From contig NZ_JANIHG010000012.1 in NCBI RefSeq assembly GCF_024518575.1, positions 1 to 40,030 of the forward strand: 40,030 nt of DNA, given 5' to 3'. This document shows positions 10,030 through 37,756 of this stretch, in pieces. This stretch comes from Methanothrix sp. (GTDB taxonomy: Archaea; Halobacteriota; Methanosarcinia; Methanotrichales; Methanotrichaceae). The first letter of the stretch is position 1; the number at the start of each line of letters is the position of its first letter. The notes under the pieces are model-generated. The model was given only the letters and a program-made list of their open reading frames with translations. It was not told the DNA's origin and did no database searches. Position numbers and translations under genes: made by a program.

Positions 10030-10208
10030 GCCATACATTGACGAGAGGTTTGATGCTGATACGACTCCCAGGAGGTGCTCGAACAGATGATGGCTATCGA
10101 AAAGCTAATGATAGAGGACATTATGTAAATCATGCGGATCAATAGGAGAAGTAAGCTCTCGAAATCTCAGTACTTTTCGAGGCGTGTGAAGCTCGAGAAA
10201 TGAACGCT
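10030..10208 (+). promoter_or_regulatory. CRISPR leader region
   Basis: These 179 bases lie between cas2 and the first repeat. The repeats are intact at this end and degenerate at the far end, so this is the leader. It contains a hairpin at 10158-10181 (CTCGAAA and TTTCGAG arms) about 28 bases before the first repeat, and GCTCGAG repeats the arm at 10190. A small open frame with good ribosome-binding site (ATG 10087, 13 codons) is present but I do not call it a gene. No clear TATA box was found. Confidence 0.6.
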
Positions 10209-12160
10209 GTTACCATGCCTTTTAAGGCATGGCCCCATTGAAGCCCTATACACCACCTCTTCTCGAGCCACGGCTTGATGTTACCATGCCTTTTAAGGCA
10301 TGGCCCCATTGAAGCGATCTCGCTGTATCTCCTCATCAACGTTCTTGTAGAGACGTTACCATGCCTTTTAAGGCATGGCCCCATTGAAGCGCCTCCTCTA
10401 GCTCGCGCTCGAGCTCGCGTAACTTCGTTACCATGCCTTTTAAGGCATGGCCCCATTGAAGCCGCTATGCAGCGACATTTTATTATCTCGTCTGTTTCGT
10501 TACCATGCCTTTTAAGGCATGGCCCCATTGAAGCTGGACCCAGCTTATCGATCAACCCACGCCTCTTGCACGTTACCATGCCTTTTAAGGCATGGCCCCA
10601 TTGAAGCTGGAGAGAAGGCGCGCATCCTGGAGGCCGCCCGAGCCGTTACCATGCCTTTTAAGGCATGGCCCCATTGAAGCCAGACGACTGTACACACGTC
10701 TAGGATGTCCTCTCCCCTGTTACCATGCCTTTTAAGGCATGGCCCCATTGAAGCCGCGCGAACAATTTGATTCCGTCAATGACTTCTTGGGTTACCATGC
10801 CTTTTAAGGCATGGCCCCATTGAAGCTGCGCAATCAGCTCGTTGCGCTTCCCATTCAGCACGAGTTACCATGCCTTTTAAGGCATGGCCCCATTGAAGCG
10901 GTTACGGCAAAGATCTGGCGGCGATATGTAAGATCAGTTACCATGCCTTTTAAGGCATGGCCCCATTGAAGCCAGACGACTGTACACACGTCTAGGATGT
11001 CCTCTCCCCTGTTACCATGCCTTTTAAGGCATGGCCCCATTGAAGCCGCGCGAACAATTTGATTCCGTCAATGACTTCTTGGGTTACCATGCCTTTTAAG
11101 GCATGGCCCCATTGAAGCTGCGCAATCAGCTCGTTGCGCTTCCCATTCAGCACGAGTTACCATGCCTTTTAAGGCATGGCCCCATTGAAGCGGTTACGGC
11201 AAAGATCTGGCGGCGATATGTAAGATCAGTTACCATGCCTTTTAAGGCATGGCCCCATTGAAGCGGTTACGGCAAAGATCTGGCGGCGATATGTAAGATC
11301 AGTTACCATGCCTTTTAAGGCATGGCCCCATTGAAGCGCCGATACTGGGCACCAAGCGGCTGTAGGAGATGAGGTTACCATGCCTTTTAAGGCATGGCCC
11401 CATTGAAGCTTCAAAACCGCCATGAAGGTGCAAGCACACTACAGACTAGTTACCATGCCTTTTAAGGCATGGCCCCATTGAAGCATTTCCTCATCTTTGT
11501 ATCCGGTTGCCTTTGCAGTGTTACCATGCCTTTTAAGGCATGGCCCCATTGAAGCTTGTTCAGTATTTTTTCAGATACTATCTTTATCTCCATGTTACCA
11601 TGCCTTTTAAGGCATGGCCCCATTGAAGCTCCGGATCATCTATCTCATAATACAGTATGAGATTTGTTACCATGCCTTTTAAGGCATGGCCCCATTGAAG
11701 CTGCGCAATCAGCTCGTTGCGCTTCCCATTCAGCACGAGTTACCATGCCTTTTAAGGCATGGCCCCATTGAAGCTGGACGGCTTCTCGCCGTCCTGTAAA
11801 ATACATTGTGTTACCATGCCTTTTAAGGCATGGCCCCATTGAAGCAGATTCAGGCGGCGAAGGAGGCGAGGCGAATGAGTGTTACCATGCCTTTTAAGGC
11901 ATGGCCCCATTGAAGCTTTCTTGGCGGCTTGCTGAATGGGGCTGCACAGATGTGTTACCATGCCTTTTAAGGCATGGCCCCATTGAAGTTTGGTTCTGGT
12001 CAAGCATTTTGTTCAACACGAAATGTTACCATGCCTTTTAAGGCATGGCCCCATTGAAGCTTCTCGCACAATACCCTACTTGCCTTCCAAGTATAGTTAC
12101 CATTGAAGCGATGAAGTTCTCAAACGCAATGCAGAGATGCGAAAGCGAGTTACCATGCCT
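10209..12160 (+). CRISPR. CRISPR array, type I-G, 26 full and 2 degenerate 36-base repeats
   Basis: The repeat starts GTTACCATGCC, has the inner stem CCATGCC/GGCATGG around TTTTAA, and ends CCCCATTGAAGC. Full copies begin at 10209, 10280, 10355, 10427, 10499, 10572, 10645, 10719, 10791, 10864, 10937, 11011, 11083, 11156, 11229, 11302, 11374, 11449, 11520, 11594, 11666, 11739, 11810, 11881, 11954 (last base T) and 12025. Copy 27 (12096-12109) has lost its stem; copy 28 stops after GTTACCATGCCT (12149-12160). Spacers are 35-39 bases; 27 in all, 21 distinct. The ATTGAAGC end resembles the 8-base crRNA handle of type I systems, so transcription is expected on the plus strand, away from cas2. No spacer matches the rest of the window that I can see. 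Confidence 0.98.
10681..11337 (+). repeat. Duplicated spacer-repeat block inside the CRISPR array
   Basis: Four spacer-repeat units at 10681-10972 are repeated exactly at 10973-11264 (292-base period). The last unit is then repeated once more at 11265-11337 (73 bases). The third spacer of the block, starting TGCGCAATCAGC, recurs a third time at 11702-11738 between unrelated spacers. Confidence 0.95.
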
Positions 12161-12397
12161 CTTCATCCTAGCGGTTATGGACAAGATCCCAAAACAATGA
12201 CAGCTTGTCGCCCAGCAAGCAAGAAATGCTAAGGCTTGTTCCAGTGAACGAGACCGATGTACTAATATTACTGGTAAAATAGCGCGAAAATCCCGTCCCC
12301 CGCACTCTTTTCCTGCGTGCAGCCACGAGTTTTCACCTCAGTGATCCCCAGAATTTTGATATGAAAATGGGTTCAGGGACGTTTACAATGAAAAAAT

Positions 12398-35056: not shown

Positions 35057-35713
35057 TCAAACGCGAGGGGCCTGATGATGCCAGACTCTTCTCATTCCAT
35101 CTGGAGCCGTCTCGAGGATGATGCTGTAGCTGCCCTTCGCGTTGCCCACGTTGATCCTCATGCTGCCCTTGCCGAGCTGCAGATCCTCGTCGATCGTGAG
35201 ACTGATGTTGCCAACAAGAGCTTCAGCCTCTTCCCCAGCTCTGGCCTCTCTGAACCTGATCCCGGCCAGCTCCGCATCTATTCTGGTTATATTTCCCGAT
35301 CGCGTGAGAGCAATCCCTCTCAGCTGGTAAACATCCTGCGCGAGCCTGAGAACGCCTCTGTATGTGATGTTGCCTCTGCTGATCTCCGCCTGTATCTCCT
35401 CCAGGCTCATGTTCGATGAGAGCAGCTCCCTCGCTCTTGCCGGATCCACCTCCCTCATGCCCTCGATCCAGATGCTCAGCACGGAGGATATGTTTTCGCT
35501 CAGGGCGAAACCGCGGTAATGGAGCATCGGGATCATGCAGCCCTCCTGCATACACATCCCATGCCGCAGCTCGTCCAGCTCCTGCGGAGGATCCGGTGGA
35601 GGCATATGCGGAGGTGCATCCATACTCAGATGCGCGCCTGAGAAGGAGATTCCATAGGATGAGCCGATAACAATGAGTCCCACGATCAGGGCCAATGCCA
35701 GTTTGTGCGTCAA
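35057..35713 (-). CDS. Secreted sequon-rich protein of unknown function
   Basis: 218 residues with a signal peptide (LALALIVGLIVIGSSYG). A Pro-rich, metal-friendly N-terminus (HLSMDAPPHMPPPDPP, HGMCMQEGCM) is followed by a helical part containing NMSLEEIQAEISRGNITYRG, similar in style to the repeats of the neighbouring protein at 35865. Five N-x-S/T sequons (NIS, NMS, NIT, NIT, NIS) fit a glycosylated outside protein. TTG 35713 appears to be the start because the signal peptide begins right after it. Family not recognised. Confidence 0.7.
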   Translation of the reverse strand: MTHKLALALIVGLIVIGSSYGISFSGAHLSMDAPPHMPPPDPPQELDELRHGMCMQEGCMIPMLHYRGFALSENISSVLSIWIEGMREVDPARARELLSSNMSLEEIQAEISRGNITYRGVLRLAQDVYQLRGIALTRSGNITRIDAELAGIRFREARAGEEAEALVGNISLTIDEDLQLGKGSMRINVGNAKGSYSIILETAPDGMRRVWHHQAPRV

Positions 35714-35864: not shown

Positions 35865-36581
35865 TCATCTTTGCATCTTTCCGTAGCCCATGCCTCTCTG
35901 ACCCTGAGCTCCGCCCATGGGCCAGTAGGGGCACTCAGTGTATCCTGGACCCCATCCCCTTATCTCCGATAGGGTTTTGTTGTCCATCTCTGCTATCTTC
36001 TTCTCTCTCAACTCCCTGATCTCCGCCAACGTCATGTTCTCCAGCTCAGCCCTCTTCTGCTCCCTCAGCTCTCTGATCTCCGCCAATGTCATGTTGTCGA
36101 GCTCCTCCTGGGCGACATCATCCATGAGCATCCAGAGCCCTCCGAATGGAGCAATGCCGAGGCCACGATCTCCATCAAGACCGCGGCCGAACCCTCGCGC
36201 TCCGGACATCGGACCCTGAGCTCCGCCCATGGGCCAGTAGGGGCACTCAGTGTATCCTGGACCCCATCCCCTTATCTCCGATAGGGTTTTGTTGTCCATC
36301 TCTGCTATCTTCTTCTCTCTCAACTCCCTGATCTCCGCCAATGTCATGTTCTCCAGCTCAGCCCTCTTCTGCTCCCTCAGCTCTCTGATCTCCGCCAATG
36401 TCATGTTGTCGAGCTCCTCCTGCGTGAGGTCATCCATAAGGAGGCCCAAGCCACCTGGTCCTACCTCTGGACCACATCCACGATCTTCGAATCTGCAGTT
36501 CATGCAATCATGCATGGACATCGCTGGCACAGCAAGAAGTGCTGCGAGCGCCAGCACACCCATAATCTTCAGTCCTGACAC
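35865..36581 (-). CDS. Secreted protein with nested 19-residue sequon repeats
   Basis: 238 residues from GTG 36581, which has GAGGTGAT three bases upstream; an open extension to 36716 lacks a signal and is dropped. A signal peptide (IMGVLALAALLAVPAMS) leads to a Cys-bearing segment (HDCMNCRFEDRGCG). Then a 19-residue helical unit (NMTLAEIRELREQKRAELE) occurs three times, the third cut short as NKTLSEIRGWGPGY, followed by ECPYWPMGGAQG. The whole 104-residue module is duplicated. Every unit has an N-glycosylation sequon: Asn59, 78, 97, 163, 182, 201. Function unknown. It lies between the membrane regulator and another secreted protein on the same strand. Confidence 0.75.
   Translation of the reverse strand: MSGLKIMGVLALAALLAVPAMSMHDCMNCRFEDRGCGPEVGPGGLGLLMDDLTQEELDNMTLAEIRELREQKRAELENMTLAEIRELREKKIAEMDNKTLSEIRGWGPGYTECPYWPMGGAQGPMSGARGFGRGLDGDRGLGIAPFGGLWMLMDDVAQEELDNMTLAEIRELREQKRAELENMTLAEIRELREKKIAEMDNKTLSEIRGWGPGYTECPYWPMGGAQGQRGMGYGKMQR
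35902..36425 (-). repeat. 312-base tandem duplication inside the sequon-repeat gene
   Basis: The stretch from 35902 to about 36113 is nearly identical to that from 36214 to about 36425, with a fixed offset of 312 bases (104 codons); I see one silent C/T change at 36030 versus 36342. The parts between the matched stretches differ, so the copies are diverging outside the helical repeats or were partly homogenised. Confidence 0.85.
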
Positions 36582-36685
36582 ATCATCACCTCGTCCTTTC
36601 GGACAGGATCTGCTCTGGCTGAACGATATAAAAGAGGCATGCAGGACGAACGTTCTTTTGAAGTTCTTTTTTGAGATCAGAATGT

Positions 36686-37756
36686 TCAGGATTGTTCTTT
36701 TCTTGAAACAAACCACTCTGCTATCTCTATAACGTTTGTTCTACCCCATTCTCTCTTTTTTATCAGCTTTCTCCTCTCCAGAGAGTTCAGAATGCCACTC
36801 AGAGACGACTTCGGTATGCCGGTCTCGTACCTAAGATCTGCCTGGGTCATCCTCCCGCTCTTCTTCAGAAGCGTCTCTACGACAGCTCTCTCTCGGCTTG
36901 TCAGCGTCTCGATCACCGCGGCCATCTCCTTCGTGATCTCTATCGGCTCATAGCCCGGAATGAATGAGCTTCTCATGGGCTCATCTACATTCAAATCAAC
37001 ACCCAGTGTGCCATCGGGCATTTCACTGCCATCAGAAGCGCTGTCAGAGCTGAGCGATCCAGCCGGTTCTCCCCCTGGCGTGGCTGGATGGCCGGTCGCC
37101 TGCGGCTCAGATCGCGATGCCATCTCTCCATGCGACTCCATCCGTCTTCTCAGGATCCAGAAGGCAGTGCCACATGCGATGAGTATCAGAGCAGCTCCCA
37201 CTGCAAAATACGCCTGGTTCTTCCTTGCTGGCGGAAGAGATGCATTGATGGATGAGACGTTCGAGACCGTCAAGAGCGGCTGTCTGTATTCGACCACTAC
37301 AGAAGGATCGATGAGATCGTATCCCTGAAGATCGACAGCTAACGACTGGTTTGTGGATGATACAAGATAGCCAATACCCTCTGAAAGGCTTATGCTGCTG
37401 AGCATCGCGTCCCCTGGAAGATAGAGCGTCATGCTGTACCGTTCATACGATCCACGCAATTGTATCTGGAGGGTCCATGCATCTCCAGCCTTAGATGTGA
37501 GCGCGTTTGTGAGAGCATACAGCTGAGATGTGGAGTTATCGTAGCTGTACTGGGATGACTTCAGAAATGAAAGCCCCTCAAGGCTATCCGCATATCCGGT
37601 TATGAGCGCCTTTCCAGTCCAGTCGAGGTAAACGTTCAGAACGAGAGACCTGTTCTCATCAGCTGACAGAGCAGCAGTGCTCATTACGAGCAGAAATAGA
37701 AGGCAAAGCCAGAGGGCCTTCACAGCTCTGATCAACAGCCCGTACATTCGATTCAT
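36686..37756 (-). CDS. Membrane-anchored winged-helix transcription regulator
   Basis: 356 residues. A signal/first membrane segment (ALWLCLLFLLVMSTAALS, 14-31) precedes an outside beta-rich domain (32-180, with several sequons). A second membrane segment (AYFAVGAALILIACGTAFWIL, 182-202) follows, then a disordered linker. The C-terminal winged helix at about 285-350 (SRERAVVETLLKKSGRMTQA, LRYETGIPKSSLSGILNSLE, RRKLIKKREWGRTNVIE) lies inside the cell. This is the layout of archaeal one-component membrane sensors. The next genes on the same strand encode secreted sequon-rich proteins, so it may control them; that is inference. Confidence 0.85.
   Translation of the reverse strand: MNRMYGLLIRAVKALWLCLLFLLVMSTAALSADENRSLVLNVYLDWTGKALITGYADSLEGLSFLKSSQYSYDNSTSQLYALTNALTSKAGDAWTLQIQLRGSYERYSMTLYLPGDAMLSSISLSEGIGYLVSSTNQSLAVDLQGYDLIDPSVVVEYRQPLLTVSNVSSINASLPPARKNQAYFAVGAALILIACGTAFWILRRRMESHGEMASRSEPQATGHPATPGGEPAGSLSSDSASDGSEMPDGTLGVDLNVDEPMRSSFIPGYEPIEITKEMAAVIETLTSRERAVVETLLKKSGRMTQADLRYETGIPKSSLSGILNSLERRKLIKKREWGRTNVIEIAEWFVSRKEQS

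Follow-up and report, generated by a model that had tools for sequence, protein, structure and literature searches.

The stretch of DNA analysed here (the window, 40,030 nucleotides) carries a locus of three genes on the minus strand, in which a candidate regulator is encoded upstream of a gene for a repeat protein and an exported partner downstream of it. The features of this locus are as follows:

35057..35713, minus strand: exported cassette partner, 218 aa, with a helix-NMS-helix part, a predicted beta-barrel and 5 sequons
35865..36581, minus strand: repeat protein gene, 238 aa, with a GTG start and GAGGTGA ahead of it; homologues found
36516..36581, minus strand: signal-peptide-like N-terminus (residues 1-22), a hydrophobic stretch, leader-like in homologues as well; helix 3-26 in the model
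36209..36440, minus strand: module 1 copy of the 312-nt-spaced repeat (Asn59, 78, 97)
35897..36128, minus strand: module 2 copy of the 312-nt-spaced repeat (Asn163, 182, 201)
36290..36416, minus strand: array of 57-nt (19-aa) units in module 1, from TRF
35978..36104, minus strand: array of 57-nt (19-aa) units in module 2, from TRF
36621..36651, minus strand: promoter element GTTCGTYC-N15-TATCGTTC, overlapping a TATA-like CTTTTATATC and conserved upstream of the repeat gene
36686..37756, minus strand: candidate regulator, with a signal/TM N-terminus, a 5-sequon ectodomain, a TM and a cytoplasmic wHTH (Pfam DUF7343)

Elsewhere in the window, at 10208-12061, there is a CRISPR-like array of ~25 repeats of GTTACCATGCCTTTTAAGGCATGGCCCCATTGAAGC with a 73-nt spacing.

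The repeat protein combines two periods. A direct repeat of 232 nt (35897-36128 and 36209-36440), 97% identical and in a register of 312 nt, corresponds to two modules in which residues 158-227 are identical to residues 54-123 (70 aa), and within each module TRF finds the 57-nt period. The sequon N-x-T occurs six times, at exactly residues 59, 78, 97, 163, 182 and 201, with a spacing of 19 residues per module. Composition alone would give 0.40, and none of 20,000 shuffles gave six; in one module taken alone there are three against 0.19 expected (p = 2e-4), and the sequons are thus in excess even when only one copy of the duplication is counted. Together with the hydrophobic leader, this bears out the original prediction of a secreted protein with nested repeats and one sequon per unit, although the 19-residue unit is complete only twice per module: a short 'DDLTQEEL' helix precedes two full units, and the third is, in either module, a truncated stub of ~9 residues followed by a Gly/Pro/Trp tail. 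The duplication of 312 bases had also been taken as recent. Its register and identity stand, but a single recent event is not a sufficient account, since in the congeners with two modules both modules of one genome are mutually closest (4/4), with DNA identities of 93-100% within a genome vs 79-93% between genomes, which points to homogenisation or repeated duplication. The comparison of module number between strains that had been proposed does reveal variation within the genus, four congeners having two modules and two a single one.

Homologues were sought first in 61 genomes and then, with a nine-sequence profile, in 238 genomes of the class. The profile search found them in 47 of the 50 genomes of one archaeal family, probably the Methanotrichaceae, and outside it there was 1 marginal match (E 5e-4) among 188 other genomes. 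The homologues have one or two modules, each of two to three units, and they share a signal-like N-terminus and flanks rich in Met and Gly. When the repeat protein was compared with Pfam, NCBIfam and PDB sequences, the matches all stayed below threshold and were mutually inconsistent, as charged helices would be expected to produce, in agreement with the earlier remark of knowing no family with this plan. The repeat family has no Pfam model and is lineage-restricted, being essentially absent elsewhere.

The order regulator, repeat gene, partner is found in 6/6 genomes of the genus, and in 20 regions from other genera the partner adjoins the repeat gene in 17 and the regulator lies directly upstream in seven. 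Furthermore, the partner protein has the same range as the repeat protein (35/37 genomes of the family and 0/24 others), and the wHTH of the regulator is near-invariant between genera; a literature search on DUF7343 found nothing. A model of the partner, compared by Foldseek, matched small beta-barrels, mostly bacterial surface barrels, at E values of about 0.008-0.1, which are not significant. The three genes, encoding a transmembrane wHTH regulator, the repeat protein and an exported barrel protein, form an undescribed, conserved and lineage-restricted cassette. Downstream of the partner, seven of the 20 regions from other genera carry an ectodomain-only paralogue of the regulator, possibly a decoy or a co-sensor. 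Ectodomain-only paralogues, lacking the wHTH, lie at L065:6269-6733, L067:2298-2774, L071:6749-7207, L072:8461-8907, L073:5962-6459, L076:8284-8727 and L078:9120-9572.

An AlphaFold2 model of the repeat protein, built with 29 homologues, has a modest confidence overall (pLDDT 64.5) and mostly 82-88 in the repeat helices, which span residues 54-59, 62-78, 81-97 and 100-105, with counterparts in module 2. The units are helical in the model, as had been proposed, but the helix is not continuous: every sequon falls in a helix-helix turn, in which Asn closes one helix, Thr opens the next and Glu stands at +3. T-x-x-E at a helix start is a capping box. Across the homologues, 146 units were picked out by criteria that left the Asn position aside; Thr is present in 146/146, partly by construction because the unit list was filtered for Thr/Ser, Glu or Gln stands at +3 in 145/146, and x is Met in 131. 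At the Asn position there are 126 Asn (86%), Gly 7, Ser 6, Asp 3, Lys 2, Thr 1 and Glu 1. With Asn and Thr both masked, 121 N/T pairs are still recovered, together with ~20 units without Asn but with Thr, and nearly all Thr-less matches are register shifts of a neighbouring unit. That Thr is kept where Asn gives way to Gly, Ser or Asp indicates that the tripeptide also serves helix capping, and capping accounts for the Thr and for part of the Asn signal.

These observations weigh against the glycan-coated surface rod that had been suggested, that is, a continuous helix bearing N-glycans at an even 19-residue spacing and forming part of a sheath or surface layer. The export of the protein, a sequon in each unit and the presence of STT3 genes in the genome are consistent with it, and in a sheathed Methanosaeta the sheath was reported to be an N-linked glycoprotein (PMC2952790). 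However, the turn at each sequon and the replacement of Asn, with Thr kept, in 14% of the units make a continuous glycan-bearing rod unlikely; beyond the signal, moreover, no TM or anchor is seen in the repeat protein, and its promoter element is common to an exporter operon. Archaeal sheath proteins have, in addition, been described as beta amyloid-like (PMC11576556), and those of Methanothrix, although they resemble the repeat protein in being exported surface proteins of sheathed methanogens, probably of the same family, differ in their beta amyloid-like core from the helical hairpins predicted here, for which no Pfam S-layer match was found. The rod is, in our judgement, very improbable.

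Do the sequons carry sugars at all, or are they a by-product of capping, in which Asn ends one helix and Thr starts the next with no sugar attached? The turns of the model and the substitution pattern described above would suit the by-product, as would short helices in which D-x-T occurs 27 times and N-x-T 11 times. Nonetheless, the 86% of Asn greatly exceeds the background that cytosolic proteins show at this position (3/66), and two further comparisons argue in the same direction. The first concerns the partner and not the repeat protein, and sets 16 leadered copies against seven leaderless ones, grouped by hand and probably representing one lineage contrast derived from one ancestral duplication: the turn reads N-[K/R]-S in 16/16 leadered copies (N-M-S in the window copy), whereas in the leaderless ones the aligned Asn is lost in all seven and the Ser cap is kept in five, and the last 165 residues hold 67 sequons vs 13.2 expected in the former (a maximum of 27 in 1,000 shuffles) and two vs 1.9 in the latter. 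The second comes from a sampled congener (19-20 stretches of ~20 kb, with simple ORF and hydrophobicity calls), in whose exported proteins N-x-T reaches 1.62x the expected number (z 4.5, with the repeat locus excluded) and is not enriched in the cytosolic ones, although N-x-S shows no such excess. The repeat protein is exported, has N-x-S/T sequons and is encoded in a genome with STT3/AglB (three STT3 genes), and its N-glycosylation is plausible on indirect evidence, while capping without any sugar is a doubtful, though still considerable, alternative.

The leaderless partner paralogues, which have lost the sequons, are a natural control in asking whether glycosylation is what keeps sequons in place. 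They are predicted to be cytosolic and lie at L074:7090-7620, L077:6503-7030, L079:6869-7453, L081:7578-8096, L082:8426-8962 and 11616-12179, and L083:7234-7770. At L070:8699-9847 a leaderless and a leadered copy appear as one 383-aa ORF, either a fusion or a frame artefact.

The promoter element GTTCGTYC-N15-TATCGTTC has an invariant 15-nt spacer. Allowing <=1 mismatch, it is present in 20/25 genomes of the family, with 1-6 sites each, and in 0/16 outside genomes, and a reversed-pattern control was near zero. The genes behind these sites include a MacB-like exporter operon of an ABC ATPase, an exported protein and a MacB_PCD/FtsX permease (in seven genomes, G000, G001, G002, G011, G015, G019 and G023) as well as other exported proteins, and the sites define a small putative regulon. 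In genus g9 the repeat and partner genes are kept, a regulator homologue lies apart from them, and of the element just the inner half remains; a joint absence of element and regulator from this genus had been considered and was rejected on account of these two remnants. Cassette and promoter element are, together, the better functional lead.

Besides the site in the window, the element sites are those at L105-L134, restricted to the family among the genomes searched. Directly behind the element there are, moreover, Met-rich exported proteins with repeats of the 'SMMDG/SMMGxDG' type (L137, L142, L149, L151 and L152) and, likewise behind it, small ferredoxin-like proteins with two clusters of the CxxCxxCxxxCP type and a signal-like N-terminus (L147 and L154). 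Might the repeat protein then handle metal or redox stress outside the cell, its Met/Cys/Gly-rich flanks binding metal and the regulon answering such stress? The Met-rich flanks of the homologues, and the Met-rich and exported ferredoxin-like proteins sharing the element, would agree with this, but neither Cys nor His keeps its positions among the homologues and matches to metal-binding families all stay below threshold, and we consider this explanation unlikely.

Among known systems, CpxP/Spy (LTXXQ, PF07813) offers a likeness in several respects: a small, exported, all-helical, Met-rich protein with repeated T-x-x-E/Q helix starts, whose gene adjoins that of a membrane-spanning signalling protein and has its promoter element in common with an exporter operon. 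The repeat protein differs in its tandem 19-aa units, its modules, its sequon at each turn and its archaeal origin, and the cassette has a one-component transmembrane wHTH and not a two-component system. PF07813 had no match in the own genome even at E <= 10 and matched 0 of 29 members of the repeat family at E <= 0.01 (one of the 29 matches PF13801 Metal_resist at 0.0088), and Foldseek of the repeat model against the PDB, a weak comparison for the four-helix cradle dimer of CpxP/Spy given a monomer model of modest confidence, returned no Spy/CpxP and a best match of any kind at E 6.4. Membership in LTXXQ was rejected because PF07813 is absent; the repeat protein would work like CpxP/Spy by analogy, not by homology. 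As for the regulator, ArnR/ArnR1 of Sulfolobus (cited in PMC13286277) are likewise transmembrane one-component regulators with a membrane-tethered HTH. The protein here has its HTH at the C-terminus, after ectodomain and TM, and of the DUF7343 type, and belongs to another cassette with another promoter element.

The reading that we prefer, with a probability of roughly 45%, is that the repeat protein is an exported, probably glycosylated helical-hairpin factor made by an envelope-sensing regulon. The regulator would sense an extracytoplasmic condition through its ectodomain and bind the GTTCGTYC-N15-TATCGTTC element. The repeat protein would be produced in response and, once exported, would serve for binding, for buffering or as a chaperone-like factor, much as CpxP/Spy do. 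Its N-M-T turn would cap two helices, and its Asn, in an exported protein, is probably, not certainly, glycosylated. The binding by the regulator, the induction by stress and the molecular activity of the repeat protein are what we infer from these data. A more specific version, in which an archaeal extracytoplasmic-stress regulon is run by a transmembrane one-component regulator through this element and has an effector that is CpxP/Spy-like, unrelated in sequence and glycosylated at every helix turn, is a long shot that we put forward with low expectations. Little is known of the ways in which methanogenic archaea perceive and counter trouble beyond their membrane, and this cassette, with its sharply defined promoter element, offers a directly testable regulon in a major family of methanogens that use acetate.
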